This document shows positions 2,050-63,590 of a stretch of 64,000 nucleotides of DNA, piece after piece. The notes beneath the pieces were generated by a model. It worked only from the letters and a program-made list of their open reading frames with translations, made no database searches and had not been told where the DNA came from. The stretch's first letter is position 1. Every line of letters starts with the position of its first letter. This stretch comes from Pelagomonas calceolata (taxonomy: Eukaryota > Sar > Pelagophyceae > Pelagomonadales > Pelagomonadaceae): assembly GCA_918797485.1 (NCBI GenBank), contig CAKKNE010000002.1:5608501-5672500 (forward strand). Reading direction: 5' to 3'. The position numbers and the translations under genes were made by a program.

Positions 2050-2071
2050 CTAGTGTCTTACAAGCCGCTAG
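2050..2071 (+). promoter_or_regulatory. Palindromic promoter element, copy 1
   Basis: Left arm CTAGTGT, core CTTACA, right arm CGCTAG. It lies between divergent genes: 321 bp upstream of the CNBD start (1729) and 188 bp upstream of the helicase start (2259). Confidence 0.7.
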
Positions 2072-2258
2072 CTCTGGTTTTGGCGCGCCGCGTTCAGCTT
2101 GTCTGCACGCACAGATGCAAATACGCATAACTTAAGCAGTGATAAATATACCAGCGATCACTGTGTTGCAGCGCTGCTACGCAAACGCTGGTTTTAGCAC
2201 GTCTACATAGCATAGCACAATAGCAGCAGCTCCCAAGCTGAACGCCGCGCTAAGACAA

Positions 2259-4826
2259 ATGGCATTCGTGCAACCATTCACGAACCTCAATCCAAGGCGT
2301 CCAAGACGCCAGCCCACGAGCGTCGTCCGCACCGACCAGCCGAGCAAGATCTACGCGGCTGCGCTGCGCGAGGTGCTCGCCTGGGAGAATAGCTCAGAAG
2401 AGGGCGAGGCCGACGGCGCGCCGCCGCGCGACGACTCCGTCAGTAGTTATGTAGACGCCTGGGTCGGCGCGTGGCTGCGCGAGACGCGCGCTGATGTTGC
2501 GTCATCACCAAGAGGCGCGTGGCGCGAGGTTAGGGTGGCCCTGGAGAACGCCGGCGCGCACGATGCTGATAGAGGTGCCTTCGCGCCCCTGAAAATTTAT
2601 GGAAGACTCGGCGACCCGGCGCGGGATGACTTGGTTGCGCTCAAGCAGGACAGCACAAAAATACTCTGCGTACTAACGAAGCGCGACGGCGCGGCGGACG
2701 CGGCCCGCGTCGGCGCGCGGAAATTACTGGGCCCGGGCGGCGTCCAGGCCACGTGCCAATTTCAAACCATAACGGGGCTGACGCCGTCGTTACGAGAACT
2801 CGACGCATTAGCGCACGTTCCGTTGCTGAGCCCGAGGCTACGCGAAGCTTTAGTATCAAAGCAGACGCGGCCGGTCACCGTCCAGACGAAGCGCACGGAC
2901 TTAGGCGAGCACGCCGCCGCGGCGGCCTGCTGCGCGAGGTTAGACGCTCTTGTTTCAAGGAGCGGCTTCTCAAAACATGCGCGTACGAAGTGCAACCCTA
3001 GTCAATTAGAAGCGATCGTCCACGCCGTCGGCGGCTTTGCGCATGATAGTGAAGATATCACACTGATCCAGGGCCCGCCAGGCACGGGAAAAACTACAAC
3101 CTTAGTAGTCTGTGTCAACGCGCTCCACAACGCCCAGTACCAGACCTACTACCAGGAAGTTTTAAGGGAGGCCATCCACAAGGACGATCTGGTGCGGCAG
3201 GCGGGCTGGAAGAAGTGTGCCAGGAGATGTGAGTGGCTCGAGAAGTTACGACACTTGAAACCTAGGATACTCATAGCCGCACCGTCGAACGTTGCGGTTG
3301 ATAATGTAGTGCAAAAAATCGTTCAATTAGGCTTCGTCGACGGTACGGGTTCGAAGTACAACCCGGACATTGTACGCGTTGGGCGCGGGTCGGTCGGTGC
3401 TGGGGTGGCGTCCTTAGATGCTCGAGTTGATGATTTCTTAACTAAGGACGTGGACTGGCTGCAGAATGAAGCTCAAAGGGCGGAGAAGAGAAGGAATAGA
3501 GCTTTAGAAGATGCTAATTTAGCGAGGCACCTGCTGCAGCTGTTCTCCGAGGCACCTTCACAAATACCGAAGGGCTGGGAGGTGCGCGTGCACCCGGCGC
3601 CGCCCGCGTATAATCAGGGGCAGTACGATCGGCTCGAACCCTTACAAGCGCACGAAGTGGCGCACATTTATTACGTCGATCACGCGAATAAGAGAACGAC
3701 CCTTAAACCACCTTCAGTAAAAATGGGCCAAGAGTGTATATCAGAGTACTACGAACGGACGCACTGCCGGAAATGGCTGCTGCACTCCTTAGAAGCGTGG
3801 GCCCACGAGGGCACTTTACTTGATAGATGTCGTACTGCTTTAAACAAAGGCGTCTCGCGAGACCCTACCAAGAGAGCGCTCCAACAGTCCTTCCTCGCCG
3901 ACGCCGAGATCGTGTGTTCGACCTTACACGGCTGCGGCCACGGGTCGTTGGAAGATGCTAGATTCCGAGCTGTCGTGATTGATGAAGCTGCGAACGCGAC
4001 GGAGCCGGCCGTTTTGTGTGCTTTACGAAGACTGGAGCAGGGTCGAGTTGTATTAGTAGGCGACCCTAAACAATTGCAGGCCGTGCGCAAGTTCAGTGGA
4101 GACGCCTGGGCCGGGGCGTCGCTGTTTGAAAGGCTAGCTTCACAAGGAACTCCAGTACGTTTACTAGATACGCAGTACCGCATGCATCCTACGTTATCGT
4201 CCTACTGTTCGCAGGCGTCCTATAACGGGTTGCTGCGGGACGGGCTACCTTTATCGACGTTCAAACCGTCGACATGTGCTGCATTAGGGCCGCTCTCCTT
4301 CTTGAATCTCGCGACGTCCGCCGAGAAACAGTCGTCGACGCAATCTAGATCAAATCCGGAAGAAGCGAAGCTGTGTCGCAAGGTCTATGATGCGTTACAG
4401 GCGCGGGACGTGGCGGTCGTGACGTTCTACCGCGACCAACTGAAGGAGCTAAGGCGCGTCTTCGGGGACGTGTCGAAGAAACTCGTGGAGATTGATACCG
4501 TGGACGCGTTTCAAGGAAGGGAGAAGGACTATGTTATTGTCTCATGCGTGCGCGCGGGCGACGAGGGCGTGGGCTTCTTGAGAGATGAAAGGCGGCTGAA
4601 CGTCGCCTTGACGCGCGCGAAGCACGGGTGCGTCGTTATTGGTCGCGAGGCGACGCTGCGCACGGATCCAAGGTGGCGGGGGTTATTGGAAGCTGCTTGC
4701 ATCGTGGACGTGGCGTCTTCTGACGCGGCGCTGGAGCTGTTGGGGGCTCGTGGAGCTCCTGTGCTCGGCAAGCGGCGGCGCGAGGAGGCCGAGGACGGTG
4801 AGCTGGAGGATGTGGGGATCTTGTAG
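2259..4826 (+). CDS. UPF1/SEN1-like superfamily 1 DNA/RNA helicase
   Basis: An 855-residue intronless protein with the complete SF1B helicase motif set: Walker A GPPGTGKTTT (~residue 270), APSNVAVDN (Ia), a DEAA Walker B box (~575), VVLVGDPKQLQAV (III), LLDTQYRMHP (IV), DTVDAFQGREKDYVIVSC (V) and RRLNVALTRAKHGCVVIG (VI, ~776). This order and spacing is that of the UPF1/SEN1/SMUBP2 family, which unwinds RNA or RNA:DNA hybrids with ATP. The acidic box reads DEAA instead of the common DEAQ/DEAS. No CH zinc domain of true UPF1 is present and the N-terminus is short, so a SEN1/IGHMBP2-like role in transcription or RNA turnover is more likely. Start chosen at the first ATG of the frame, 188 bp after the palindromic element. 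The C-terminus is basic and then acidic (GKRRREEAEDGELEDVG). Confidence 0.93.
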   Translation: MAFVQPFTNLNPRRPRRQPTSVVRTDQPSKIYAAALREVLAWENSSEEGEADGAPPRDDSVSSYVDAWVGAWLRETRADVASSPRGAWREVRVALENAGAHDADRGAFAPLKIYGRLGDPARDDLVALKQDSTKILCVLTKRDGAADAARVGARKLLGPGGVQATCQFQTITGLTPSLRELDALAHVPLLSPRLREALVSKQTRPVTVQTKRTDLGEHAAAAACCARLDALVSRSGFSKHARTKCNPSQLEAIVHAVGGFAHDSEDITLIQGPPGTGKTTTLVVCVNALHNAQYQTYYQEVLREAIHKDDLVRQAGWKKCARRCEWLEKLRHLKPRILIAAPSNVAVDNVVQKIVQLGFVDGTGSKYNPDIVRVGRGSVGAGVASLDARVDDFLTKDVDWLQNEAQRAEKRRNRALEDANLARHLLQLFSEAPSQIPKGWEVRVHPAPPAYNQGQYDRLEPLQAHEVAHIYYVDHANKRTTLKPPSVKMGQECISEYYERTHCRKWLLHSLEAWAHEGTLLDRCRTALNKGVSRDPTKRALQQSFLADAEIVCSTLHGCGHGSLEDARFRAVVIDEAANATEPAVLCALRRLEQGRVVLVGDPKQLQAVRKFSGDAWAGASLFERLASQGTPVRLLDTQYRMHPTLSSYCSQASYNGLLRDGLPLSTFKPSTCAALGPLSFLNLATSAEKQSSTQSRSNPEEAKLCRKVYDALQARDVAVVTFYRDQLKELRRVFGDVSKKLVEIDTVDAFQGREKDYVIVSCVRAGDEGVGFLRDERRLNVALTRAKHGCVVIGREATLRTDPRWRGLLEAACIVDVASSDAALELLGARGAPVLGKRRREEAEDGELEDVGIL

Positions 4827-5434: not shown

Positions 5435-6610
5435 CTATGCCCCCCGGAGCCAACCCTCGACGCGCCCCAAAAGCGCCGCGTCCGAGTATTCCGCGGGGAG
5501 GCGGCTCCGCGGCGGTTCGCGCGACACGGCGTCGAGGGCGCGCCGCACGGCGTCGGGGTACTCTTCCAGAGAGACGCTCGCGACCCAGGGCGCCCCCACG
5601 GCGTCGACAAAATCGTGCTGCGTGCGCCACGGCAGCCGCGGGTTCACCCACTTCTCGACGCGCGGCTTCGGATACCTGACCTGGACGACGGCGCAGCCGT
5701 GCTCGAGCGCGTCGAGGGCGCCGGGGCCCAGGACCGGGTCCCCGAGCCCGAGGGCCACCTGGGCCTCTCCGAGCAATTTTGAGTAGCCCGCGGCGTCGAG
5801 GAGGCCCCGGTTCTCTATAAAAGCGGGCAACCCTCTTGCCTTGTCGCGGGGCACGGTCGCCACGAGCTTCACGCCATCTAACTTCGAGACTGCGTCGAGC
5901 GCCCGCCGCACCGCCGGCGTGAAGTATTTTGCTTCCTTGCCCAGGATGAGGACCAGTCCCTTTTTTTTGGGAGGCGGGTCCGCGCGGTAGGCTTTATCTT
6001 CGACCCGGAACCCGATCATCGTGTTGCCGCAGGGATACGGGTAGGGCACGAGGTACTCGTTAACTTTCGTCCCGCGCGCGACTTGTTGCTGAGGCGTGCC
6101 CCAAAAATCCACGTTGTAGCGCCTTTTCGCGGATACGGCTCTTTTCAACGCATCATCCGTGTACTGGTCCGACACGACAATAATGTTACCGGTTAATGAG
6201 GCCGCGTCGGCTCTATTCTTCACGACGACCGTCTTTGCTCCTAATTCTTGCGCGCCCCACATGATGGCCGAAAATATTTTGAACTCGCCGAAGGTGTGGC
6301 CGTGGTCGTAGAGGTTCGGCTTCACTATTGCGATTGTTGTGCCCGCGAAGTCCGAGCGTTTGCTCTCGGGTGACGGTGGTGGTACGGCTGGCTTTACGAC
6401 GGGCGCCGGTGGTGCTGGCACGGCTGCTGGCGGCTCGCGCGCAAACGCGTCGCCCTCCTTCGCTGCAGCGGCCAGCGATTTGAGTTCTGCTCGTAGCGCG
6501 GCGTCCTTGTCTCCGGCCGGCGCCGCATGGTGTGGGAGGTGCAGCAGGTTGGTGACCGTTACGAGTGCCGTGACAAGGAGCAGCGCTGTGGCTACGTGGC
6601 TAAATTTCAT
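5435..6610 (-). CDS. GT18-like (MGAT5-type) glycosyltransferase, type II membrane protein
   Basis: A 391-residue protein starting MKFSHVATALLLVTALVTV, an uncleaved signal anchor of a Golgi type II protein, followed by an Ala/Pro-rich stem (to ~residue 90). The luminal part carries a GT-B donor-site block, VALGLGDPVLGPGALDALEHG (~300-320), then CAVVQVRYPKP and TQHDFVDAVGAP. These match the order of the alpha-1,6-mannosyl-glycoprotein beta-1,6-GlcNAc-transferase family (GLG.P..GPAPLEAL..GC, then SQHPY...VG.P). The likely role is to branch N-glycans in the Golgi, but the protein is roughly half the length of animal MGAT5 and the exact acceptor cannot be read. Family assignment is from motif resemblance only. 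It shares an upstream region holding a palindromic element (6678) with the gene at 7050. Confidence 0.6.
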   Translation of the reverse strand: MKFSHVATALLLVTALVTVTNLLHLPHHAAPAGDKDAALRAELKSLAAAAKEGDAFAREPPAAVPAPPAPVVKPAVPPPSPESKRSDFAGTTIAIVKPNLYDHGHTFGEFKIFSAIMWGAQELGAKTVVVKNRADAASLTGNIIVVSDQYTDDALKRAVSAKRRYNVDFWGTPQQQVARGTKVNEYLVPYPYPCGNTMIGFRVEDKAYRADPPPKKKGLVLILGKEAKYFTPAVRRALDAVSKLDGVKLVATVPRDKARGLPAFIENRGLLDAAGYSKLLGEAQVALGLGDPVLGPGALDALEHGCAVVQVRYPKPRVEKWVNPRLPWRTQHDFVDAVGAPWVASVSLEEYPDAVRRALDAVSREPPRSRLPAEYSDAALLGRVEGWLRGA

Positions 6611-6677
6611 ATTATCGATTCTTGCCAGCCATGGCTGGCGTATGCATCGAATTTTGGCCGGCGCCGCAAAAACGCAG

Positions 6678-6698
6678 CTAGCGTCGGTAAGCTACTAG
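6678..6698 (-). promoter_or_regulatory. Palindromic promoter element, copy 2 (variant)
   Basis: Left arm CTAGCG, core GGTAAG, right arm TACTAG. One of the more diverged copies. It lies 68 bp upstream of the GT18-like gene and 352 bp upstream of the gene at 7050, between these divergent genes. The remaining ~430 bp between them shows no gene. Confidence 0.5.
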
Positions 6699-7049
6699 CA
6701 AGTATGCCGAGCAAGCCGCCGGCCGAGCCGCCGCACGTTCCATCTGTCTGAGCATGGAGTGCTGCTCCTGTCGACGAGCCCTGGACCAGTTCCATTCGTT
6801 CTTCGCGTTGCGTGAATGAAATTTGCCTGGATGACGATCGTGACCTATAGCTCCTCATCCAGAGTATACCAGGCAGAGCCAACGCGTTCGACGGTTTTGT
6901 CGTATCACCGAAGGCCGGTGTGTGCGAGCTCTACGTCTGAAAATACGTAAAAGGTGCTCTGCAATCAATTTGGGCCAGGTGTCGACTTGCACTCATCGCC
7001 CGCGCACCCCCGCGGTTTCTACGCCTCAAAACTATACGACTCAAAACTA

Positions 7050-7451
7050 ATGCGACGCCCCTCCACACGGCGGCCGTCTCTGTGCGCGCGCCGCGACGCC
7101 CGCAAAAAATTCCGGGCCAACGCGCTCGAATGGACGGTGCTCATCGTTGTTGGTGTTGCGGCGCCCTGTGCGTCGTTCCAGTTCGGGCAGTTGATCGGCC
7201 ACAAGCTCTTCCCCGAGCAGCAGTATAACGACGCGCACGCGACGTGCAACGCGAACCCGAAGGACCAGATCTTCGTCCGCAGTCCGAGCGACCCGTTCGC
7301 CGCGGTGCAGCCGGATGCGACGCCCGCGCCGGTCCCGGACGGCGCGCCGACGCCTATTTCGACGCCGACGGCGCCGAAGAAGTGTCAAATAGAGGCGCAC
7401 GACCTCCTCGGCCTCTCGCCCGCGGCCGCGGCCGCGCACAGCTGCAGGTAA
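7050..7451 (+). CDS. Hypothetical single-pass membrane protein
   Basis: A 133-residue frame from ATG 7050. The N-terminal 30 residues are strongly basic (MRRPSTRRPSLCARRDARKK), followed by one hydrophobic segment WTVLIVVGVAAPCASFQFG and a Pro/Thr-rich tail with two Cys. The basic lead plus one helix would fit an organelle-inner-membrane or type II protein. The frame is also open upstream to 6954, but only with a GTG. It ends at CTGCAG/GTAACA, which is a good splice donor, so the true C-terminus could lie in a further exon before 7530; I could not place one. No family recognised. Confidence 0.4.
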   Translation: MRRPSTRRPSLCARRDARKKFRANALEWTVLIVVGVAAPCASFQFGQLIGHKLFPEQQYNDAHATCNANPKDQIFVRSPSDPFAAVQPDATPAPVPDGAPTPISTPTAPKKCQIEAHDLLGLSPAAAAAHSCR

Positions 7452-12631: not shown

Positions 12632-13945
12632 ATGCGCACGCGCAGCGACGCAGCGCGCCAGCGATCCCTGCTGAAGCTCCCAGAGGACTGCATCAGGCAT
12701 GTGGCGCTTTTCATTGATCGCGACGTCCACGGGGCGCGGTTTGCGTTGACGTCGCGGCGCGTGATGCGCTCCCTGACGTCCACGGTCTGGGCCAAGATTC
12801 TGAAAGCGACGCACGGCGGCCTCAAGATCGCCGCCGCGGAGACAGACGGGCTGCGGGTCGCTGCGCGACTCGCGGCCGCGCGCGCTGACAGAGGGCCCGT
12901 CGATGGGTTCTGGGCCCTCGCCACGAGTTGCGGCGCCGCGCCATACGCCCAACAGCAATATTGGGCCGACGCGCTCTTCCGACGCGAGCCTTGGCGCATC
13001 TACTGCTCGCGATCCAACCCCGGCGGCGAACCGGTGCTCTGCGCGACGGCGTTTCTGGCGGGCGGAGAGGACGAGGAAGGGCCCGATCGGCGATATATGT
13101 TAGATAGGCTCGAAGCGGATAATCGCGCGTATATCCAGGAAAGTTTCAGGAAGGGAAGGTCCAACCTGGCCTATGTGTTCGAGGATGTTTATGGACGCAA
13201 CGCTCCCAACGCAAGTCCATTGACTGGGAGGACGTTGCGCATATGCCAGGAAATTGCGCGCCGTTTCGACAATGCTCAATTGGACAACCCGTGGTTTAGG
13301 TCGGGCCTCTCGGAAACTGTTTACGAGGCTCGCGGCGACAACGGCGTTCAGGTGGACCCGCGCGTCGAGGCGCTGGCCGCGAGGGCGCACCCGGCGACTG
13401 CGATCGCGACCGGAATCACTATCCGCCGCGCGCTGAACTTCACGTGTCCCGCGCGCTGTGGCATCATCTACGGCTTCCGAAGGCCTCCTCGCGTCTCCGA
13501 CATCTCCGACGGCCGCTTGAAGGATCTAGCGGCCGCCGCTGCACCGACGATCTGCGAGCTCGGGCCACTATCTGGTGATTCTCCCAATGCATTAAAAGAC
13601 TGCTTCGAGGACACTGAACCGGTGCGTCTCTCACTGCGAGGCGTCTTCTGTGCATGCGCATGCTACCAGATCGTCGGCGGCGACCAGGACGCGGAGGTCT
13701 TCCCGCTCGCAGTCTTCTCCTTTCCTATTCGCTCTCAGGTCCAAGAAATTCCCGACATGCGGGCGACCCTCGCCGTCCCCGTGGCGATCCAGGGCATGGT
13801 CGTCGCCGTCGTCGAGGTCGACAACCACGGCGACGAACTTTGGAACGAAGGCGAGGCCAACGTCGACCTGGAGTACGTAGGCATCGAGGGCTACGCGTAC
13901 GTGCCACCGGGTCACGAGCCGGTGCCACCGGACCACCGCTTGTGA
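12632..13945 (+). CDS. F-box-like protein of unknown function
   Basis: 437 residues from the first ATG. Residues ~10-55 (RSLLKLPEDCIRHVALFI, then HGARFALTSRRVMRSL) look like an F-box, the Skp1-binding helix bundle of SCF ubiquitin ligases: LPEDxxxxVxxFI followed by a Leu/Ser-rich second half. The remaining 380 residues match no family I know; they contain a segment with WFRSGLSETVYE and a C-terminal beta-rich part (LAVPVAIQGMVVAVVEVDNHGDELW, broken here only for length at its ends) with four Cys near residue 340 (FCACACYQIVGG). No membrane segment. If the F-box is real the C-terminal part would be the substrate receptor. The gene call is firm, the function tentative. Confidence 0.6.
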   Translation: MRTRSDAARQRSLLKLPEDCIRHVALFIDRDVHGARFALTSRRVMRSLTSTVWAKILKATHGGLKIAAAETDGLRVAARLAAARADRGPVDGFWALATSCGAAPYAQQQYWADALFRREPWRIYCSRSNPGGEPVLCATAFLAGGEDEEGPDRRYMLDRLEADNRAYIQESFRKGRSNLAYVFEDVYGRNAPNASPLTGRTLRICQEIARRFDNAQLDNPWFRSGLSETVYEARGDNGVQVDPRVEALAARAHPATAIATGITIRRALNFTCPARCGIIYGFRRPPRVSDISDGRLKDLAAAAAPTICELGPLSGDSPNALKDCFEDTEPVRLSLRGVFCACACYQIVGGDQDAEVFPLAVFSFPIRSQVQEIPDMRATLAVPVAIQGMVVAVVEVDNHGDELWNEGEANVDLEYVGIEGYAYVPPGHEPVPPDHRL

Positions 13946-19524: not shown

Positions 19525-19583
19525 GTGTTGTTTGTGATTCGTGTGGTAAGTCTAGTATGTTTACTCGGATAGGTGTTGTAAAT

Positions 19584-20652: not shown

Positions 20653-21408
20653 TTAGTCCCTAGGCGCGCCGAGGCCGGGGATCTTGGACGGATGGCCGAC
20701 CCAGGCGACGACCCAGAAGTCGGCGCCGTCCGCGCAGAGATGGACCTTCTCCGTGGCGCCGCCGCTGAACGTAAACCCGGCGCCGGGGCGTTGGCGTTCG
20801 TATTCCTCGTTTGACACTCTCCCGCGGACAACGAAAGCCGGATGATCCTCCAGCCGGTTAGCCGCACCAAGTATATATGTATTCTCTCTTCTTTGTCCAG
20901 CGTACGGTTCAGCGGACACGACGAAAAATACTTGGCCCTTGGGTACGTCAATTGACACGTACAACCCGGACTCATCATCATCAATGTTACGTTTATTCTC
21001 GATTTTGAACGTCAAGAAGCGGGCCGTGGGTCGTGCCCGTTCCAGCGCCTCGAGGGCCTCGTCGCAGGCGGCGACCAGCGCTTCGTAGCACAGAAACTCT
21101 GCCTCGGTCCTGAGATCCTCGAGCCGATGCGCGTCCGCGGCGGCGGCGGCGGGCAACCGGTTCGCGCGCATGAATCGGAGCACGTCCGCGAAGACGTCCG
21201 GGTCCCGGTCTAGGAAAATCTCCCGCTGGCCACCCGGCGCGTCGTCGCCGTCGGCTGAGACGCGCGCGCGCTTCTTTCCGCGGAGCTTCCGGCCCGTCTC
21301 CCCCAGCAGCGCTTCAAAGTAGCCTGCGCCGCTGGCCTCAAGTGTTGTGGTGGACGTTTTGAAGGTGCGGCCGCCCGCATCGATGATGATCACGCTGTCG
21401 GAGCTCAT
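20653..21408 (-). CDS. BTB/POZ (KCTD-type T1) domain protein
   Basis: 251 residues. The N-terminal ~110 residues are a potassium-channel-tetramerisation-type BTB: VIIIDAGGRTFKTSTTTLEA, a charged loop with KRARVSADGDD, then REIFLDRDPDVFADVLRFMR (the classic FxDRDPxxFxxVLxFLR block) and AEFLCYEALVAACDEALE. The C-terminal half is beta-rich with two matched segments (ESGLYVSIDVPKGQVFFVV; FWVVAWVGHPSKIPG) and is not recognised. KCTD-like proteins act as adaptors of cullin-3 ubiquitin ligases or in channel assembly. It is divergent from the Cys-loop channel at 21640; their shared region has no palindromic element, one of two exceptions. Confidence 0.85.
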   Translation of the reverse strand: MSSDSVIIIDAGGRTFKTSTTTLEASGAGYFEALLGETGRKLRGKKRARVSADGDDAPGGQREIFLDRDPDVFADVLRFMRANRLPAAAAADAHRLEDLRTEAEFLCYEALVAACDEALEALERARPTARFLTFKIENKRNIDDDESGLYVSIDVPKGQVFFVVSAEPYAGQRRENTYILGAANRLEDHPAFVVRGRVSNEEYERQRPGAGFTFSGGATEKVHLCADGADFWVVAWVGHPSKIPGLGAPRD

Positions 21409-21639
21409 GTTTGCGTGAGTGCCTCTCGTCAGACACGATTTATCAAATTAGTTGGGGGGCAGCCCATCAGGCAGAGCAATATTGAGCCATTTTGAGTGTT
21501 CGCCGGCGAGGAGCACCACAGTGCGGCATAATTCCAGACCCGCAGCAGTGATCCGGCACTCTCACGACAGGAATAAAGCAGCCCGACGGCGCCTCGAACC
21601 ACTGCAGCAGGACAGGGCAGCCCCAAGCCCTCTGAAACG

Positions 21640-23358
21640 ATGGCATCCGCGCCGAAGCGATGGATGCTTCTGCTCATGGTAGCACGCATGAGGGCACAAC
21701 CCGGCGGTGGCGGCGACTCCGGTGACGGCCCCGGCGACGGCCCCGGCGACGGCCCCGGCGGCGACGGCAACGACAAACGGTGCCAATTCAACATGACCCA
21801 GCGCGCATTTCACTCGCACCGCACGCTCGAAGACATACTTCTGAGCACGGAGTACGATGCCAGCTCGAGACCCGAGGTCGCAAGAGAGAAAGACCTGAAG
21901 AACAAGCCCACCGCGGTCACCTGGACGCTCGCGACGAAGGGCTTCTCCATCAGCGAGAAGGCGAACACCGTGACGCTCACGGGCGAGGTCACGGAGTCCT
22001 GGGTCGACGAACGATTAGCGTTCAACTACACGCAGGGCGATACTTGTCCTAGTGATTCTCCACCCGTCTGGACCGTCTCGAAGAGTCATTATTATCAGAT
22101 CTGGCGGCCCTGGCTCTACATCTCGAATCAAGTCTCCACGTCCGATATCTCCAACGCCGGCAGTTCGCTCAAGGTCGACGCGGACGGGACAGTGACGTGG
22201 ACCTACAACACTCTGATCACGGCGCGCTGCGCTTTGGACTTAAAAAGGAGTCCCTTCGACACACAAACGTGCGGCGTAGACGTCATGTCCCTCTCGTACG
22301 ATGCCTTCGAGATGGAGATCAGCGGCGCCGCCTACTCGACGCAGCCCACCTTAGAATGGAAGATGCTGGGCGACGCCAAGGTGTCGTCGAACAGTGCGGT
22401 CAAGGAGGGTCCCGATGCCCAAACGACAGGGCCGTCGTACGCCGTGCTAGAAGTACGCTTCGAGTTCAAAAGAAGGAACGGCTACCAAATCCGGGAGATA
22501 TTCGTGCCGGCGATCCTATACCTATTACTAGCTTATTGCGGTTTCTGGATAGACCGGAATGTGGCACCGGCAAGAGTCGCAATCTCCGTCATCCCAGTAT
22601 TGATCACGCGGACGCTCCTGAACTCGGTCTACGCGACAAGCCAATTGCTGCCCTACGTTAACGTGCTCACGCTCTACCTGAACATCCTCAGCTATCTCAA
22701 TATCCTCGCTGTCTGCCAATATGCTCTGGTGCAGCGCTGCATCCAGGACGAGAAGAAGGCGTTGCTACGACTAAAAGGCCTCGCAAAGATGAGAGATGTC
22801 ATCGACGCGCTCGTCGACGCGACAGAGACAGTTGCGCCGCCGCACGCCAAGACCCCCCCGGACCCAGAGGCGCCCGTGGCGGTCGTGCCCGGAAAGCGCA
22901 TCATCCGGGCACGGAGCGAGCGCTTCGACGCGCTGCTCGCGCAGAAGGGGGTCAACCCCGTCGCCGGCCGCGCCGTCGCCGAGCTCAAACGAATCTTCGA
23001 GCGGGCCGACCGCGACGGGTCCGGAGACATCGATATGCTCGAGTTCTGCAAGGCGCTGCGAGGCTTCGGCATCTACGACCCGCCCGACGCCGCGCGGCTC
23101 GCGCTGTCGTCGATGCGCCACGCTGCGAATCAGGACGACGCTACATCAACGGTAGGTTTCGACGAGTTCGTCGACCTACTCCTCGGCTACGAGAAACATC
23201 GAGTCGCGGATATCTTCCCGGGAGAGGAGCTGCGGAACTTTCGGTACCTGCCCGCGTCGCTCCAATTGGACGTCGCCTGCCGCATCGCCTTCCTCCCATT
23301 CGCTGGTGTCGTGTTGGCCGTCGCGCTATCTATCTTGGACGCGCAGACGGCCGAGTAA
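21640..23358 (+). CDS. Cys-loop (pentameric) ligand-gated ion channel with EF-hand in the M3-M4 loop
   Basis: 572 residues. After a signal-like lead comes a GDGP repeat (residues ~30-45), then an extracellular ligand-binding domain with aromatic strands (WRPWLYISNQVST, WTYNTLITARC). Cys197 and Cys211 are separated by exactly 13 residues (CALDLKRSPFDTQTC), the eukaryotic Cys-loop with the conserved Pro-Phe-Asp. Four membrane helices follow: M1 IREIFVPAILYLLLAYCGFW (~284), M2 ARVAISVIPVLITRTLL (~312), M3 NVLTLYLNILSYLNILAVC (~338) and M4 RIAFLPFAGVVLAVALSIL (~547). The long cytoplasmic M3-M4 loop carries a canonical EF-hand loop DRDGSGDIDMLE (457-468) and a second, degenerate one (NQDDATSTVGFDEF). 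M2 has few ring charges, so ion selectivity is unclear. The ligand is unknown. Confidence 0.88.
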   Translation: MASAPKRWMLLLMVARMRAQPGGGGDSGDGPGDGPGDGPGGDGNDKRCQFNMTQRAFHSHRTLEDILLSTEYDASSRPEVAREKDLKNKPTAVTWTLATKGFSISEKANTVTLTGEVTESWVDERLAFNYTQGDTCPSDSPPVWTVSKSHYYQIWRPWLYISNQVSTSDISNAGSSLKVDADGTVTWTYNTLITARCALDLKRSPFDTQTCGVDVMSLSYDAFEMEISGAAYSTQPTLEWKMLGDAKVSSNSAVKEGPDAQTTGPSYAVLEVRFEFKRRNGYQIREIFVPAILYLLLAYCGFWIDRNVAPARVAISVIPVLITRTLLNSVYATSQLLPYVNVLTLYLNILSYLNILAVCQYALVQRCIQDEKKALLRLKGLAKMRDVIDALVDATETVAPPHAKTPPDPEAPVAVVPGKRIIRARSERFDALLAQKGVNPVAGRAVAELKRIFERADRDGSGDIDMLEFCKALRGFGIYDPPDAARLALSSMRHAANQDDATSTVGFDEFVDLLLGYEKHRVADIFPGEELRNFRYLPASLQLDVACRIAFLPFAGVVLAVALSILDAQTAE

Positions 23359-23372: not shown

Positions 23373-25475
23373 TTACACGCGGATGCCGGCCAGCCCCTCC
23401 CCCTCATACCCCTGGCGCTCGCCCTCCTCGAAGATGATGTCGAGGTCGTCGAGGAACTGCCCCGCGGACGAGAAGATGGCGTCGAGCTCGCCCTCGGCGC
23501 CGCGGATCGCCGCGGCGGCGTCGGGGCCCTCGGGCTCCTCTTCTTCCTTCTTGGGACTCACGCCGAGCTGGAAGATCCAGGAATTGGGATCGGCCGGCCC
23601 CGGCTTCGGCGGCGCGGACGGCGGCGGCGCCGGGACGCTCTTCGTGAGCTCCGCGATCTGCCGCCGTAAGTCGCGGATCTCCTTGTCCTTGGCGTCCCCA
23701 ATAAACGCCTCCTCGTCTTGTTTCGGTAACGAGGTCGCATTCAACAGATCGGCGAGGATGGTCGGAGGCTGGTCCGTGTCCGGACTCCGCGCCGCCGCCG
23801 CCGTTAAACCTTCGTCGATCATCTCCGCGGTCTTCTCCACGCGTTCTCTGGTGGGAGGCGGTTTTTGTAACACACGCTGCGTCGGCGGCCCGCAGTAGAC
23901 GAAGTGGCAGTGCGCGCAGACTTTGACGGCGTCGTACAGGGCCAGGCGCTGCCGCCGCGACATCTTCACCAAAGCTGCCGCAGTGGGCCGCGCTTCTCCA
24001 TCGCGGGGCTTGTCCAGGACCACTTTTCGCGGTATTGAGAACCTCAGGTCGCGCGCCATGGCGTCCTGGTACTCGTGGAGGCGTTCTTCCGGGATCTCGC
24101 GGTCGCAATATGCGCCTTCACATTCTACCGCTTGAAACGGCTCCTCTTTATCAACAATGATCTTCTTGCGCGGCATCCAGACCTCGTTACGGTCAAAGGT
24201 ACCTCTGATACCTTTGATCTGCAACACGGACCAGCGCCCTCTTTCATCTTGGACGCAGTCGCACGCGATCGCTGTCAACTGATTACCGAGGACATGGTTC
24301 AGGCCCCGCAACACACTTGCCGTGCAGACCTTGGCGTCGGTCCAGGCTTGACTCCCGGGCACGCTCCGCACGACCGAACACGTGCCCTCGACGCACCTTG
24401 CCGTGGAGGTGGCCACTTCCTCCTGAGACGACTCCGAGAGGACCCAGGCCTCGGGCTGCCCGCCTCCGTGAGCCCAGGGCCCCGCGTCGATTTTCGTATT
24501 CTCCTCGCCCCGCCTCAGCTTCCACTGGAGGTTCGCGGCGGCCCGCGCGTCCACCAGAGCTCTACAAATCCACGGCTTGCCGCCCTTTGATGATATATAA
24601 CGCTGCAAGACGACGCCCGCCTCGCCCACGGCATCACCGACGGGCTCCGTGAATAATAAGGCTTGCAGCGCGGCGCGCGCGGCCTTGGGTTTCGTGTAGA
24701 AGGCGCAGGCGTGCTGGCCACTCGAGGTATCTGGAGGAGCTTTCTCGACGGCGTCCGCGGCTCGTTTCGCGGCCTGGTGGTGCATCGACGAGAGGAACGC
24801 CGTCGTACATTTGAGGACGACGAGCGGCTTCTTTGTGAAATGCCGGTGCCTACGGGCTTCGACGTAGCTGTCGTCCTCTATTACTTCGCTCTGCGGGCCG
24901 CATAACCTCTTTTCCAACAATCTTCTCGTAGCTCGGTCCAGCCCGACCCAGCCCGGCTCGCCGTCCTCGTTGAGGTCGCCCCAGCGCCACGCCCTCCGCT
25001 GGACCTTGCCGTCTTCGTTCGAAGAATGCCAGACGAGCGTGGGCGGCGAGGCCACCACCGATAAGGTACAGGGCACTCTACAAGAAGTTCGGTCGGGCAC
25101 TAACCCCCAGCAGGTCGCACCGGAGTCCAAGTCGGGGCAGGACGCTTGTTTCGCGTCTTGTGATGCCAGCCGTTTCTTCGCCTCCAGAGCGGCTTCCTTG
25201 TTGGCCGGGGCGAGCGGCGGTAATGTCGTGGACGGCTCTTGCGCGATCGGGGCCTCGGGCTTCGTGATCGGGTTCAGCGGCCGGGCGAGCTTGTTTGTCC
25301 TGTTTCGCTGCTGCCGTTTTTTCGTCGGCTTCCTCGCGGGCTTGCCGCGCTTCACGTTGCGCAGCTCCCTTAATCTCTTCTCGATCTGCTTCTCGGTGGT
25401 CGGCGTGAGGCCGTCGAGCTCTCCCAAGAACGCGTCGAAGCGGTTCGAGACGCTTGCTTCATCGGTTGGCTCCAT
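23373..25475 (-). CDS. Large unknown protein with cysteine pairs
   Basis: 700 residues from ATG 25475 (MEPTDEASVSNRFDAFLGEL). The frame is open to 25598, but a palindromic element at 25614-25635 would then sit 16 bp from the start, whereas elsewhere these lie farther off; 25475 gives 139 bp. N-terminal part: helix and a basic stretch (GKPARKPTKKRQQRNRT). Central part: WHSSNEDGKVQRRAWRWGDL, FTKKPLVVLKCTTAFLSS, VVLQRYISSKGGKPWICRAL and WSVLQIKGIRGTFDRNE, which look like a globular beta/alpha domain. Then two cysteine clusters (ECEGAYCDRE; VCAHCHFVYC) and an acidic C-terminus with a coiled segment (KDKEIRDLRRQIAELT). Single Cys-x-x-Cys-type motifs of this kind occur in some ciliary proteins, but I do not recognise the family. 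Confidence 0.7.
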   Translation of the reverse strand: MEPTDEASVSNRFDAFLGELDGLTPTTEKQIEKRLRELRNVKRGKPARKPTKKRQQRNRTNKLARPLNPITKPEAPIAQEPSTTLPPLAPANKEAALEAKKRLASQDAKQASCPDLDSGATCWGLVPDRTSCRVPCTLSVVASPPTLVWHSSNEDGKVQRRAWRWGDLNEDGEPGWVGLDRATRRLLEKRLCGPQSEVIEDDSYVEARRHRHFTKKPLVVLKCTTAFLSSMHHQAAKRAADAVEKAPPDTSSGQHACAFYTKPKAARAALQALLFTEPVGDAVGEAGVVLQRYISSKGGKPWICRALVDARAAANLQWKLRRGEENTKIDAGPWAHGGGQPEAWVLSESSQEEVATSTARCVEGTCSVVRSVPGSQAWTDAKVCTASVLRGLNHVLGNQLTAIACDCVQDERGRWSVLQIKGIRGTFDRNEVWMPRKKIIVDKEEPFQAVECEGAYCDREIPEERLHEYQDAMARDLRFSIPRKVVLDKPRDGEARPTAAALVKMSRRQRLALYDAVKVCAHCHFVYCGPPTQRVLQKPPPTRERVEKTAEMIDEGLTAAAARSPDTDQPPTILADLLNATSLPKQDEEAFIGDAKDKEIRDLRRQIAELTKSVPAPPPSAPPKPGPADPNSWIFQLGVSPKKEEEEPEGPDAAAAIRGAEGELDAIFSSAGQFLDDLDIIFEEGERQGYEGEGLAGIRV

Positions 25476-25613
25476 TGTTGGTACCGTCGCGTCGCGTTTG
25501 GGATGAGCGCCCGTCGCGGTGCCACCTGGGGTTTCTCCCGGAGGTGGAGAGGCAGCCGGGCGTCCGTGGAGACAGCCCCTTTGCTCGCAAGCTGCCACAA
25601 AACCACCGTTTTG

Positions 25614-25635
25614 CTAGTATGTTACAGGACGCTAG
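25614..25635 (+). promoter_or_regulatory. Palindromic promoter element, copy 8
   Basis: Left arm CTAGTATG, core TTACAG, right arm CGCTAG. 139 bp from the start of the 700-residue unknown (25475) and 116 bp from the amine oxidase start (25751). Confidence 0.75.
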
Positions 25636-25750
25636 CTGAGGTTTCACGCCTTCTTTTTCGAGCGCCTCGGTGCGTCTGCAGACTCACACGTGTCGCAAAG
25701 CTCGACTCGTGTATAGCGCCACTACTACTTTGCACTCTGCTGCACCTGTA

Positions 25751-27091: not shown

Positions 27092-27392
27092 TAGTAAGTT
27101 TGTGGTAAAATGAAATAGCTATAGTCAATTCGGGTTGCGGGGGCGCGCGCCTAGAGGGGTGACGGGGGAGCTATCCCCCGCGAGCGTGTACGTAAGTTTG
27201 TGGTAGAAGTTGCAAAATCAAAACGGGTTTTTGGCCAAACTTTTGGGACGCCTAGCGCTCGTACGCGGCGCGTTATCTACGAGGAAGGTGGGTCTGCGAT
27301 CGATTCGCCTCACGCACGGCCCCTCTACCGAACGAGAACGCGAGCGGCCGCCCCCGCAAAATAGCCGACCTCTAGGAGCAAGAGTCGACTCG

Positions 27393-36521: not shown

Positions 36522-36565
36522 GCGCACACAATCCCACGACCCCCTACGTGTACACAACTTACAGA

Positions 36566-37909: not shown

Positions 37910-38093
37910 GCTTGGTCTTTTTGGCGTGCGCGGCGGCGCTGCTGATGTGCTGCCTGTTCTCGCCGCGGGACGGCGCTGCGCCCCTGCTCTTTTGCCACGC
38001 GTGCAGAAACGGCTGCGGCGGCGCGTTGCAACGTGTGATTTGGCTAGCGCGCGCGTATACGCGGCAGAGGAGCGTTCGTTGTGAAATGTCCCG

Positions 38094-38113
38094 CTAGTGG
38101 TCTTATACGCTAG
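38094..38113 (+). promoter_or_regulatory. Palindromic promoter element, copy 12 (variant)
   Basis: Left arm CTAGTGG, core TCTTATA, right arm CGCTAG (20 bp). Between divergent CtIP (37909; 185 bp) and GluTR-like (38379; 266 bp) genes; the other ~450 bp of this gap show no gene. Confidence 0.55.
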
Positions 38114-38378
38114 ATCACGTTTTGCCACGTGATATAAAAACTGCCTCATCCAAGCCCCCTTGCAGTATTTGTTCGATCTGTTACGTTTACGTGCGCTACT
38201 GCTCACTGCAGCACCGCTCCTCAGGCTTTCCTGCCGAAAAGAGCGGTCACAAGCAGCTCTAAGAGCTCAAGGCACCTGTGCTCAAGTCTGCAGGCTCCCG
38301 AGCGACGTGCTAACCGTACGCAGCCGTGGTGCCGCGCACTACGCGGCCGCAGCGGCACAGCTCTTAAAAGTGGACAAA

Positions 38379-39392: not shown

Positions 39393-39468
39393 TTTTTGTA
39401 ATGTTCGTGAACCACCACCCCCGCGTTACCCGCGGGCCGCGACGAGACGAGTCCGTTTCACAAAATAA

Positions 39469-40617: not shown

Positions 40618-40787
40618 GTTGCGGCGGTGGCGTGCAGAGGCTATGCAGCCTCTGAGACTGGCAGCACAGCAGCGTCCTTTTATACCACTAAAGATTCCTG
40701 CCTCTGCTTTGAGAGTCTTATACCGTTCCCAAAAGTCACGAAACCGTGCAAACTACCCCGTGATGTCCCCGGCCCCGTGCCTGCGCG

Positions 40788-40809
40788 CTAGCGTCCTGTA
40801 AGACACTAG
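40788..40809 (-). promoter_or_regulatory. Palindromic promoter element, copy 13
   Basis: Left arm CTAGCGTC, core TGTAAG, right arm ACACTAG. 171 bp from the 2OG oxygenase start (40617) and 169 bp from the CSL4 start (40978), almost exactly midway. The 360-bp gap holds no other feature except a possible 5'-leader splice pair (GTAAGG ... TTGCAG, 40924-40962). Confidence 0.78.
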
Positions 40810-40977
40810 CCTACAAGCCAAACCACGGCTGCAGCGCAGTGCTCGCCGAGCTACGGCATCGCAGCGCTGGGCGAGTGCTCGCTACGGCATCGCAGTTCTC
40901 GCATCAACGCCATCGCCGCGCTGGTAAGGCCGGCATTCTTGGTTTGAGCCCTTGCAGGCTGCACAAGGGCTGGCAGC

Positions 40978-41565
40978 ATGGCGCAAAACAAAAAGAAGAG
41001 CAAAGCCAAAGGGAAGGGCAAGCCGCCAGTAAAGAAAGCAGGCAAAGCTGCGAAAAAATCGAGCGCGACCGCGACCGCCGCCGCCGCCGTCGCCGCCGCA
41101 CCGGGAATCGTCGAAGCGGGCGCGCTGGCCGCGCCGGGCGACGTGTTAGGGTCTACTGCGACCCACAAGTGCGGCCCGGGCACCTTCGCGCGGGATGGTA
41201 CAATTGTCGCGTCGCTGGCCGGCACCGTGCAAATCAACGACGACGTTATCGAGACCATTAGGGAAGGCCGCCGCCCCGCCATCGCCGTGGGCGTTGAGGT
41301 GATCGGCGTCGTGACGCGGACGAACCGGACGAACGCGCTGCTGGACCTCGTCGCGGCTGGTGGGGCGGCGCTCGACTTCCCGGCCAGGGCAACATTAAGA
41401 AGGGAGGACGCGCTGCCGCCGGGCCGGGACGCGTCGAACTTGGATCTGACGGCGCAGTTCGCGGGGCGCGACCTCGTTCGGGCGGTCGTGGTGGCCGTCG
41501 ACGACGCCGCGCGGTACCACGTGTCCGTCGCGCCGGAGGGCATGGGGCTCGTGCGGAGTGCGTAA
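40978..41565 (+). CDS. CSL4: Exosome complex subunit CSL4 (EXOSC1), no C-terminal zinc ribbon
   Basis: 195 residues. A Lys-rich N-terminal tail (AQNKKKSKAKGKGKPPVKKA) precedes the CSL4 N-terminal domain: AAPGDVLGSTATHKCGPG, TFARDGTIVASLAGTVQI. The S1 RNA-binding domain follows: VGVEVIGVVTRTNRTNALLD, FPARATLRREDAL and FAGRDLVRAVVVAVDDA with YHVSVAPEGMGLVRSA. Family members end with a small Cys-rich zinc ribbon after this point; here the stop comes first. CSL4 caps the RNA exosome and links it to cofactors for 3'-5' RNA decay and processing. The Lys-rich tail could be a nucleolar signal. Confidence 0.82.
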   Translation: MAQNKKKSKAKGKGKPPVKKAGKAAKKSSATATAAAAVAAAPGIVEAGALAAPGDVLGSTATHKCGPGTFARDGTIVASLAGTVQINDDVIETIREGRRPAIAVGVEVIGVVTRTNRTNALLDLVAAGGAALDFPARATLRREDALPPGRDASNLDLTAQFAGRDLVRAVVVAVDDAARYHVSVAPEGMGLVRSA

Positions 41566-41621
41566 CCTTAGTGTAGTGTAGTATCCGTTACGGAGGTGTC
41601 GAAAACCGGCGCGGGGCTCGT

Positions 41622-41642
41622 CTAGCGGCCTAAAGACACTAG
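41622..41642 (-). promoter_or_regulatory. Palindromic promoter element, copy 14
   Basis: Left arm CTAGCGGC, core TAAAGAC, right arm ACTAG (21 bp). It lies 57 bp downstream of CSL4 and directly before the orphan frame at 41655. Confidence 0.6.
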
Positions 41643-41654
41643 AAGCAATAGCAA

Positions 41655-41846
41655 GCAAGCTTCTCTTGTCCATACCCGACGGTCGCCGAGGCGATCCAGG
41701 GCTGCGGCATCGGGTACAACCGCACGCAGTGGGCGACGGTCGACACCAGCGGCCGCAAGAAGCTCGAGAAGCTCCTGGGCGCGGCGAAGCCCTACGCTCT
41801 TGGAGTTCTGGGAGGCCTCGCGCTCGCCGCGTTGGCGCGCCGCTGA
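41655..41846 (+). pseudogene. Orphan 3' exon or broken gene for a small membrane protein
   Basis: An open frame without any ATG encodes FSCPYPTVAEAIQGCGIGYN, RTQWATVDTSGRKKLEKLLG and AAKPYALGVLGGLALAALAR and stops at 41844-41846. The pattern (soluble helix, KKLEKLLG, one hydrophobic helix, basic end) is that of a tail-anchored or inner-membrane protein. Upstream stops (TAG near 41649) and the absence of ATG in the 90-bp gap after CSL4 mean that its 5' exon is not recognisable. The reverse strand also has a frame here but it is Arg/Leu-rich and looks like a shadow. Confidence 0.4.
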
Positions 41847-41914
41847 ACTTTCCACACACGCCCTCCTCCCCCGGGGCCTTCGTGAGTATACTAGTACACA
41901 TGCTTAGACAAGAC

Positions 41915-42703
41915 TCAAGCCGGCGCCGGCGCCGACCGGTAGCGCTCCTCGCGCTCCGCGCGTTTGCGCGCCATCTTGATTTTCTTGAAGATGTCCGACG
42001 GCTTGGGCTTGTTCGACGGGCGCGGCGGCGGCGGTGGAGGCTCGTCGCCTTTGAGCTTGAGCGTCGCCGAGGGCCAGAGGCCGAGCCCTTGCAACGTCCG
42101 CTTCAAATCATCCGGCGTGAGCTCGCGCCGCGGGTGGACCAACGTTAGGTCCTCAACGCCGACGTTTCGCTCGGAAGCGGCCCGTAACCACCCCATGACC
42201 TTTTCGAGTACGTCGTCGGCATCGTAGCGTCTGCGCTGCGGCGCCGTCGAGCCGGAGAGCAGCGTCAGGGTCGTGGTCCCCGAGGCTCCCAACGCCGGCT
42301 CGGGTGGCAAGTGGTCGAAGCGCTGGGCGGCGCGGCGCGTCGGCTCCTCGCGCAAAGCGGCCTCGAGGGACGCAGACGCGAGCGCCAGGCGCCGCAGCAC
42401 TACCGGGGTGGTCGCGGTACGGAACTCGTAGCGGCCCGGCAGCCCCTCGAGGGGAGCATAACCTAACGCCGCCATCAGGCTCGTCGCGTCGCCGGCGACG
42501 GCCGCGCGGCGCGACGTAAACAGCTCCGGGTCCTGCACGAGCTTGTCGATCGCTGCGCGCGCATCGGTGATCGTGGCCGAGAATTCAGCAGCGGTGCCCT
42601 TGCCGCGTAGCGCCGTGACGGCGCGCGAGAAGCATTCTTGCTCGCGCGTGCCTTGGGTCTTGAGGCGTTCGAGCGTCTGCTCGTAGGTTGTTGGGCGGCG
42701 CAT
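41915..42703 (-). CDS. UBX-domain protein, likely CDC48/p97 adaptor
   Basis: 262 residues. The C-terminal UBX domain (~145-215) shows TTLTLLSGSTAPQRRRYDAD, VLEKVMGWLRAASERNV, LVHPRRELTPDDLKRTLQ and LGLWPSATLKL: beta1-beta2, helix, TP-turn and the closing Leu-x-x-L strand of the ubiquitin fold. The N-terminal ~95 residues (FSRAVTALRGKGTAAEFSAT; SLMAALGYAPLEGLPGRYEF) resemble a PUB/PUG-like helical domain that binds the p97 C-terminus. A Pro-run (PPPPPPRPSNKP) and a basic helix end the protein. UBX proteins recruit CDC48 to ubiquitinated clients. The FPR loop of classical UBX proteins is not obvious. Confidence 0.75.
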   Translation of the reverse strand: MRRPTTYEQTLERLKTQGTREQECFSRAVTALRGKGTAAEFSATITDARAAIDKLVQDPELFTSRRAAVAGDATSLMAALGYAPLEGLPGRYEFRTATTPVVLRRLALASASLEAALREEPTRRAAQRFDHLPPEPALGASGTTTLTLLSGSTAPQRRRYDADDVLEKVMGWLRAASERNVGVEDLTLVHPRRELTPDDLKRTLQGLGLWPSATLKLKGDEPPPPPPRPSNKPKPSDIFKKIKMARKRAEREERYRSAPAPA

Positions 42704-42914
42704 TGTGGTGGCAGCAGCTGACCCTGATGTGTTTTATGTGGCACAGCGATGGATTTCGACTGTGTTGCGCTAGCAGAAGCAACAGAAGGCCTGAGCGACC
42801 ACGAATGTGGATTTGTGGCAGATATGCTAACCAGTGAGGCGCGTATGCCGTGCCGAGTTCGATGCGACCAGGTACTCTCTTTGCTGGTTCGGGTTCGGGA
42901 GTCGATCGCGATAC

Positions 42915-44018
42915 TTAGGCGCGAGTCCTAGATAGCGCAAATGGAGATTTCGGAGGGGAAACCGGACACGCCGTCGTGAACACGGTGGTCGGGTCCGCCG
43001 GGAGCGCGGGCGGCTCGCTCCCCGGCGCAAGCGTCGCTAGGGGTCGCCCGAGATTCAGCTTCTCCTCGCCGGCACTGATTTCTGCGGAGCCACCGGTCGC
43101 GAGGTAGGCGGTGCCCGGCGCCGCCTCCGCGCCCGCGTCGACGGCGCCGCCCTCCCCATGTGTGCCGTTCGGCGTCGCGGCGAAGGTGACCGACGACGCG
43201 GGGCGCCAGCCGCCCGCCTCGGACCACGCCCACGCGGGGCCGAACCGCGCGCGGCGCTCGTGGTACACGCTCCGGCCGTCGCGCCGGAAGTCCTCGACGA
43301 ACGAGTTGATCTTCGGCCCCAACGTACCATCCTTCGGGCGCACGAGCTTGAACGACGCGAGGTGCGTCCACGCGTCCTCGCCGTCGGGCCAGATCCACGC
43401 GCCGTAGCACGCGCCGCCGTCGTCGCAGCGGCGCATCATCACGCAAAACCGCAGTCGCTGGCCCGCGGTCCAGCCCGCGCCGTAGTCAATGCACTGCAGC
43501 CCGGTGCCCTCCCCGCCGAACCGCCGGACGACGACATGCGCGTTCTCGTACAAAACCGCGGCGCGATCGGCGACGGCCGCGGTCTCACCTTCATTCGCAT
43601 CCCAGACCGAGAACAGCACGCGTCGATGGTCGCCGTGGTCCTGGACACCAAAATACCCGTCCGCGAAGCCGACGGCCATGAAGAAGCTCCCAGGCGCGTG
43701 CTGCTCCACGACGCACTCGTTGTAGAACGCCTGCGCCGCGCCGCCGCCGCCGAAATGAAAATCCAGGTGCACCGACCGCGCGGCCGTGAATCGCGGGGGC
43801 CGGGGCTCGAAGCTCCGCCAATCATTTTCGAGCAATAATGTCGCTGCATGGTCCGTGCTCCCGCCGCCTATCGCGAGCGTGCGGCGGAGCGCCGACGCCG
43901 GTACGTGAGGAAACATGGCCGCGAGCGTGGCGATGGCCGCGTCCGCCGCGGCGTCCCGGTCCAGCATTTCCTCCTCATGGCGCACGGCACCGCGTAACCC
44001 AGGCGCGGCCGGCTGCAT
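42915..44018 (-). CDS. CUE-like domain plus DUF3472 protein
   Basis: 367 residues from ATG 44018. Residues ~25-65 (AAIATLAAMFPHVPASALRR, TDHAATLLLEND) form a CUE/UBA-like helical bundle: MFP...A...L...GG....A...LL. From ~80 the sequence matches the DUF3472 beta-rich domain: HLDFHFGGGGAAQAFYNECV, FFMAVGFADGYFGVQDHGD, RRVLFSVWDANEGETAAV, GTGLQCIDYGAGWTAGQRL, CYGAWIWPDGEDAWTHLASF, INSFVEDF. This domain occurs in secreted and cytosolic proteins of unknown activity. Fusing it with a ubiquitin-binding module suggests a role near ubiquitin, which is an inference. Divergent from the GT31 gene. Confidence 0.72.
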   Translation of the reverse strand: MQPAAPGLRGAVRHEEEMLDRDAAADAAIATLAAMFPHVPASALRRTLAIGGGSTDHAATLLLENDWRSFEPRPPRFTAARSVHLDFHFGGGGAAQAFYNECVVEQHAPGSFFMAVGFADGYFGVQDHGDHRRVLFSVWDANEGETAAVADRAAVLYENAHVVVRRFGGEGTGLQCIDYGAGWTAGQRLRFCVMMRRCDDGGACYGAWIWPDGEDAWTHLASFKLVRPKDGTLGPKINSFVEDFRRDGRSVYHERRARFGPAWAWSEAGGWRPASSVTFAATPNGTHGEGGAVDAGAEAAPGTAYLATGGSAEISAGEEKLNLGRPLATLAPGSEPPALPADPTTVFTTACPVSPPKSPFALSRTRA

Positions 44019-63483: not shown

Positions 63484-63568
63484 CGATGCGGCTCCCAGCG
63501 ACCCTTCGGTCGCGTTTTCGGGGCAGCGGGCAGCAATTGCGGGCTGCTGGAAAAACAAGCTGTGCTTG

Positions 63569-63590
63569 CTAGTGTGTTACATGCCGCTAG
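63569..63590 (+). promoter_or_regulatory. Palindromic promoter element, copy 17
   Basis: Left arm CTAGTGTG, core TTACAT, right arm CGCTAG. 86 bp from the sulfotransferase start (63483) and 169 bp from the NASP-like start (63759). Confidence 0.77.

Follow-up and report, generated by a model that had tools for sequence, protein, structure and literature searches.

The vertebrate CGCG element, TCTCGCGAGA, occurs in TATA-less CpG-island promoters, for which bidirectional transcription has been reported (PMC6192621). In yeast, the sites of Rap1, Reb1 and Abf1 lie in promoters and their factors have nucleosome-displacing activity; Rap1 is also reported to repress divergent transcription near its own sites (PMC6602560). 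We compared these systems, the closest described ones, with a quasi-palindromic element in a 64-kb stretch of the genome of the pelagophyte Pelagomonas calceolata (assembly GCA_918797485.1, contig CAKKNE010000002.1, positions 5,608,501 to 5,672,500; the whole of this stretch is referred to as the window). A first-pass annotation of the window had listed 17 copies and proposed a lineage-specific transcription-factor site or a bidirectional core promoter. From the distribution and conservation of the sequence, the element is probably bound by a single sequence-specific, lineage-specific protein that acts as a general regulatory factor of promoters both in Pelagomonas and in a sister species.

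The element resembles the CGCG element in being a short palindromic promoter element. However, the CGCG element is compact, 10 bp long and unrelated in sequence, whereas the Pelagomonas element is bipartite, spans about 22 bp and has a variable spacer; its form GCTTGCTAGTGTSTTAC-N2-5-CGCTAGCT does not fit the CGCG consensus as given in the accessible part of that report (PMC6192621). The CGCG element is backed by reporter and nascent-RNA evidence, whereas the Pelagomonas element is described here from its sequence. Set beside the distribution reported for the CGCG element (PMC6192621), the Pelagomonas element was found in 31 of 52 sampled divergent gaps. With the sites of Rap1, Reb1 and Abf1 it shares the location in promoters, but Rap1 is reported to repress divergent transcription in yeast (PMC6602560), whereas the Pelagomonas element lies mainly at divergent gene pairs. 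By analogy, the element would work like the CGCG element and the sites of the yeast general regulatory factors. To our knowledge, the motifs of the yeast factors differ from it in sequence. Introners, another repeated non-coding sequence of the same genome, lie within pelagophyte genes as introns some 210 bp long (PMC9481584); the element differs from them in being about 22-30 bp long and in having no match in any of 193 called coding segments.

Judged from listings, searches of the open-access literature showed no description of this motif or of promoter architecture in pelagophytes (Pelagomonas, Aureococcus), and a term search of the main text of the genome paper and of two transcriptome papers on Pelagomonas returned no promoter motif. 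Pelagophyte promoter architecture thus appears undescribed. Because this one long element stands at over half of the divergent gaps sampled in an alga of wide distribution, it gives a direct handle on transcription start in this lineage; it could improve the annotation of start sites, could be tried as a promoter part, and raises the question of which protein binds to it.

The assembly comprises 32,445,274 bases in eight contigs, six of 3.9-6.3 Mb and two of 90,574 and 39,373 bases. The genome of P. calceolata RCC100 is described as six nuclear contigs totalling 32.4 Mb, a 90-kb plastid contig and a 39-kb mitochondrial contig, with 63% GC, 16,667 genes and 0.45 intron per gene (PMC9481584). 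Our sample of 264 kb consisted of the window and 20 stretches of 10 kb distributed over the six nuclear contigs, at round-number places picked by hand. It was scanned with a gapped weight matrix for which 31 strict copies served as the seed. At a cut-off of 13 bits we obtained 53 matches, against 0.6 expected from second-order Markov shuffles; because these 264 kb were also the training data of the matrix, its scores in the sample are slightly optimistic. Genome-wide pattern counts, which are independent of the matrix, gave 1206 and 1191 matches on the two strands (2397 in total) to the strict core CTAGTGTSTTAC-N(0-10)-CGCTAG, and none to the reversed control. The two results rule out a chance origin. 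The pattern CTAGTGTGTTACANNNCGCTAG, with up to 3 mismatches, matched 1208+1136 times, against 4+0 for its reversed control. Extrapolation gives about 5,500-6,000 copies in the genome. Viral contigs gave no match.

The matrix describes the element as GCTTGCTAGTGTSTTAC-N(2-5)-CGCTAGCT. The half-sites GCTAGTG... and CGCTAGC usually occur together, and a conserved TSTTAC block adjoins the left half. The left half CTAGTGTSTTAC alone has 1377+1346 = 2723 matches in the genome (reversed control 0+1), and comparison with the strict full matches places a right half within 10 bp of about 88% of left halves; the two halves therefore form one unit. Among the 53 matches the spacer was 4 bp in 21, 3 bp in 12, 2 bp in 8 and 5 bp in 6, and more rarely 0 bp (3 matches), 6 bp (2) or 1 bp (1). 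Because the distance from TTAC to CGCTAG varies in this way, the length of 22 bp originally given to the element is merely the commonest one. In an alignment of 50 copies, conservation ended about 5 bp to the left and about 2 bp to the right of the two CTAG boxes, with near-background composition beyond, and no conserved body longer than the site, as a mobile repeat or a miniature inverted-repeat transposable element (MITE) would have, was found.

The location of the matches was related to gene calls from a home-made seven-state codon hidden Markov model (HMM) for which the sample itself was the training set (73% coding), and in which segments shorter than 150 bp were ignored; these ignored segments contain no matches. 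Thirty-one of the 53 matches lay in divergent gaps, one in each gap that had any, and 17, about a third of the total, in tandem gaps (16 of 67); two lay in gaps called convergent (2 of 54), two at the ends of stretches and one in a locus without gene calls. Called coding sequence (193 segments, 191 kb) contained no match, which agrees with the first-pass view that no copy lies in a confident coding exon. In the 20 stretches outside the window, matches were found in 20 of 36 divergent gaps, 13 of 53 tandem gaps, 1 of 39 convergent gaps and none of 147 coding segments; the difference between divergent and convergent gaps is significant (p = 1.7e-7). An even spread of copies over coding, convergent and divergent DNA, which had been named as the outcome that would speak against a promoter element, was therefore not observed. 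Location in promoter regions with depletion elsewhere, seen here in a sample of the genome, is what a site of the general-regulatory-factor type would show.

Both matches in gaps called convergent look like gene-call problems, and were kept in the counts as called. The match at 41622 of the window lies 3' of an exosome-subunit gene and before a small + strand ORF (41652-41846); since this ORF has no Pfam match, the status of the copy, as convergent or as one of those standing 5' of a single gene, where it had been placed, is uncertain. The gap with the match L011:3666 is probably tandem, because a + strand ORF with an Ephrin_rec_like domain comes next.

Within divergent gaps the copies occupy a regular position. 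For the 31 divergent copies the median distance to the start codon was 192 bp on the CTAGTGT side and 187 bp on the CGCTAG side (Wilcoxon p = 0.88), and they lie near the middle of the gap, with a variance of relative position of 0.016 against 0.083 for a uniform distribution. No divergent gap of at least 60 bp contained two matches (0 of 50, against 6.7 expected from a length-weighted Poisson model, p = 0.0006). Orientation, already described as mixed, proved random: 30 of the 53 matches in the sample were forward (p = 0.41), the two strands were nearly equal in the strict count over the genome, and the tandem copies pointed 11 times along the gene and 6 times against it. The asymmetric element is therefore used regardless of direction. 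Among the exact matches listed, nearly all were on the + strand; a strand bias was rejected, as the - strand match at 30929 is absent there and the full counts are balanced. Geometry and random orientation, both read from the sequence, are consistent with two-way transcription.

The copies in the window are as follows (spacers in bp).

2050..2071, + strand: copy with spacer 4, divergent gap 1739-2321, 39.4 bits
6678..6698, - strand: copy with spacer 3, divergent gap 6326-7109, 29.6 bits
11682..11705, - strand: copy with spacer 6, tandem gap upstream of a - strand TPR gene, 22.3 bits
12515..12538, - strand: copy with spacer 6, divergent gap, 25.9 bits
15056..15077, + strand: copy with spacer 4, divergent gap, 40.3 bits
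17651..17669, unstranded: doubtful diverged copy, divergent gap, 4.8 bits (3 of 40 shuffles as good)
19552..19572, + strand: weak second copy beside 19584, 13.2 bits
19584..19604, + strand: copy with spacer 3, tandem gap upstream of a SET-domain gene, 22.1 bits
25614..25635, + strand: copy with spacer 4, divergent gap with amine oxidase on the + side, 37.4 bits
29446..29467, - strand: copy with spacer 4, tandem gap 3' of a zinc-ADH gene and upstream of a - strand gene, 36.4 bits
30929..30950, - strand: copy with spacer 4, divergent gap between zinc-ADH (-) and putative esterase (+), 40.8 bits
34337..34358, + strand: copy with spacer 4, divergent gap between S9 peptidase (-) and class I/II aminotransferase (+), 39.7 bits
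38094..38113, + strand: weak copy with spacer 2, divergent gap, 13.2 bits
40788..40809, - strand: copy with spacer 4, divergent gap with an ECR1_N (exosome) domain gene on the + side, 32.7 bits
41622..41642, - strand: copy with spacer 3, just 3' of the exosome-subunit gene, 27.0 bits
44180..44200, - strand: copy with spacer 3, divergent gap between DUF3472 and galactosyltransferase genes, 39.3 bits
60851..60871, unstranded: doubtful diverged copy, divergent gap, 5.3 bits (5 of 40 shuffles as good)
63569..63590, + strand: copy with spacer 4, divergent gap, 35.5 bits

At all 17 coordinates of the first-pass annotation the sequence reads CTAG and a CTAG...CTAG block follows, and most copies fit CTAGTGTSTTAC-N-CGCTAG on either strand. 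Fifteen score 13-41 bits; those at 17651 and 60851 are indistinguishable from the best match in shuffled versions of their own gaps, and the weak copy at 19552 had not been listed. The copy at 38094 is overrun by the longest open SAE2-like frame (- strand, to 38206), but the coding call stops at 37909. Of the 15 divergent gaps of at least 60 bp in the window, 11 contain exactly one matrix match, and the figure of 13 originally given is reached only by counting the two weak copies; the two gaps said to lack the element, that between the BTB and Cys-loop genes and that beside the anoctamin gene, do lack it. The statement that nearly every divergent region carries a copy thus holds for the window (11-13 of 15) but falls to 56-60% in the wider sample (20/36 outside the window, 31/52 with it).

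For a comparison between species, we scanned the contigs of prokaryote genomes (257 Gb) for the strict core and found 11 contigs. Four of these (L031, L033, L034 and L040) sit in a metagenome-assembled genome (MAG) labelled Spirochaeta sp. MED672, but are colinear with P. calceolata, with about 80-94% nucleotide identity in the main blocks and 70% in the block covering the gap with the element; they evidently come from a related pelagophyte misbinned in the bacterial MAG. The remaining contigs (L032, L035-L039 and L041) were not used. By its proteins L032 looks bacterial, and the Pfam matches of L035 (MgsA_C/AAA) and L036 (HAD, ankyrin) do not decide their origin; by estimate, some chance matches to the strict pattern are expected in 257 Gb. 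A comparison of positions 24001-44000 of the window with four MAGs gave seven short or weak matches in three of the four, the longest of about 850 bp at 64% identity, and no usable orthologue.

The four sister contigs contain ten matches of at least 13 bits, and eight orthologous gaps were compared. The element is present in both species in all eight. Five aligned copies are 90-95% identical, against 35-63% in their 50-bp flanks (gap columns counted as differences), the lowest value, 35%, belonging to a copy adjoined by an insertion. One further copy is aligned but diverged (68% against 45% in the flanks), one has the opposite orientation in the two species (39.3 and 38.7 bits) and one has moved, so that six of the eight stand at an aligned orthologous place. 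Five of the eight gaps had been found through an exact match in the sister species (L031, L033, L034:2199, L034:5353 and L040:586), and the copies at L034:4291 (95%), L040:2686 (90%) and L034:7636 (68%) had not. Constraint above that of the flanks, as for a site of a general regulatory factor, was thus seen in five of eight copies, in gaps chosen by their sister match. A functional, orientation-free site under constraint would give such a pattern. Conservation confined to the site and orthologous placement also bear out the earlier view that the element is not a mobile repeat.

If the element is the site of a general regulatory factor, the protein would bind both half-sites, either as a dimer or through several domains joined by a flexible linker; once bound it would exclude nucleosomes, and initiation complexes of polymerase II would assemble on both sides. 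In divergent gaps both genes would be served, in tandem gaps one gene and perhaps a non-coding transcript. The single central copy per divergent gap could also be expected if the element were the core promoter itself, with starts at it or within about 30 bp in both directions, replacing TATA and the initiator (Inr). The rarity of TATA nearby would fit this as well: to the right of strict copies with spacers of 2-5 bp (about 2,400 strict copies in all) TATA words number 108 at 15-44 bp, 130 at 55-84 bp and 62 at 100-129 bp, a weak excess only. We regard a core promoter as unlikely, since the median of about 190 bp to both start codons would imply fairly long leaders for a compact genome, and AT content rises in the flanks at 50-80 bp on either side (10-bp bins with GC 0.51-0.57), which hints weakly at a start region there. 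Thus, of the first-pass proposal, the genome-wide, orientation-free and promoter-located site stands, whereas a strict core promoter is not favoured over an upstream site, which the median distance fits at least as well. In the 264-kb sample, TATA-like words at 60-75 bp numbered 19 against about 6 per bin, but that bin also contained 16 on the opposite strand; none was present at 60-75 bp in 16 control flanks. We do not claim a TATA box about 70 bp outside the element, given the mild excess in the genome counts, but the AT-rich flanks and the TATA words hint weakly at possible starts beyond its ends.

A boundary, architectural or replication element gathering in open intergenic DNA, and not driving transcription, would likewise be intergenic, orientation-free and present once per divergent gap. 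It is slightly less likely than a core promoter, because the copies strongly favour gaps that contain gene starts over convergent ones and tend to lie midway between the start codons; moreover, the extrapolated number of copies far exceeds the number of replication origins expected in 32 Mb. That the element is a relic of a mobile repeat (a MITE or the end of an introner) inserting beside promoters would account for the many near-identical copies, for a separate dispersed repeat of about 156 bp that adjoins some of them and for the minority of copies inside larger repeats such as a tandem array. This is very improbable in view of the end of conservation within about 5 bp of the CTAG boxes, the aligned orthologous place of six of eight compared copies, with one inverted and one moved, and the absence of two copies from all 50 divergent gaps. 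We give least credence of all to an RNA hairpin acting in 5' leaders: judged from the consensus, base pairing between the arms would be possible in one orientation, with a single wobble, but a single copy serves two opposite genes and orientation is random relative to genes. In 42 of 51 copies a T of the left arm stands opposite a G of the right arm; the five copies with A in place of the T keep the G and so show no compensation, which also speaks against a cruciform. In the window and in ten of the stretches, no Rfam family reached its gathering score.

Several observations weigh against a general regulatory factor as the explanation. Twenty-one of the 52 divergent gaps have no match at 13 bits; two copies, 19552 and 19584, share one tandem gap of the window, and a strict pair lies only 37 bp apart at C1:575888/575925. 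Two of the eight copies compared with the sister species are not kept in place and orientation, the eight gaps were chosen for having a sister match, and the weaker sister matches L034:462 (17.5 bits) and L040:849 (13.4 bits) were left out. The gene caller, finally, has no splice model.

Nineteen of the 50 divergent gaps of at least 60 bp lack a match. Their best score beats all 40 shuffles in one gap (L011, 11.4 bits) and is equalled by 1-5 of 40 shuffles in three; since it is ordinary in the other fifteen, the element is frequent, not universal. The word GGGGCAGCC, on either strand, is present in 8 of these 19 gaps, compared with 3 of the 31 that carry the element (p = 0.013); among gaps of 60 bp or more, 3 of 59 tandem gaps and no convergent gap (of 36) contain it. 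Divergent gaps with the word include 21394-21699 of the window, L011:5254, L014:993, L015:3600, L022:2032, L023:7189, L024:5477 and L028:8062. The word is a lead only, because it was picked after the k-mer ranking had been seen, and marks a possible second class of promoters. A bolder possibility, which we regard as less likely than not, is that oceanic pelagophytes rely mainly on one lineage-specific factor and its 22-bp bipartite site as an orientation-free promoter system, in which most divergent pairs would be organised by one copy per promoter. Tandem genes would then use this two-way promoter too, its other side being silent or giving a non-coding transcript, and the divergent gaps that lack the element might depend on another, smaller class, to which GGGGCAGCC is the lead.

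The dispersed repeat of about 156 bp has the end ACTAGTCCTAGCACCGTAACA, and its 15-mer CCTAGCACCGTAACA has 152+107 exact copies in the genome (control 0). With up to 5 mismatches, ACTAGTCCTAGCACCGTAACA was found nine times in the 264 kb (L015:8474, L017:1883, L017:3743, L020:7559, L021:6029, L021:9714, L027:28, L027:1518 and L029:3952) and not in the window. All eight copies with both neighbours called lie in tandem gaps, on the strand opposite to the genes, between the end of the upstream gene and a copy of the main element at most 300 bp away. In the sister species, L034:2038-2198, beside the element at L034:2199, holds sequence like this repeat, which is absent in P. calceolata (C6 near 2244520), where the element is kept; the comparison suggests insertion or loss beside a promoter element, with a mobile repeat landing next to it.

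The tandem array spans C4:2614659-2618543 and has six units 736-751 bp apart, with a copy of the element in each. Sequence of the GGATTTCCTA...GGGAGCCCTGGAAGCCGCGCCCCGG type recurs after some copies of the element, as at L017:9644. The word TCGATGGCG recurs in tandem gaps of L011, L014, L020, L025, L026 and L030, in places repeated within a single gap, and also occurs in three divergent gaps and one convergent gap; it is possibly introner-related or a start-codon context. Elsewhere in the window, an ORF of 437 amino acids (12632-13945, + strand) without a Pfam match has 37 relatives at E<=0.001 (ENA/JGI sources), none functionally named and most 59-97% identical.

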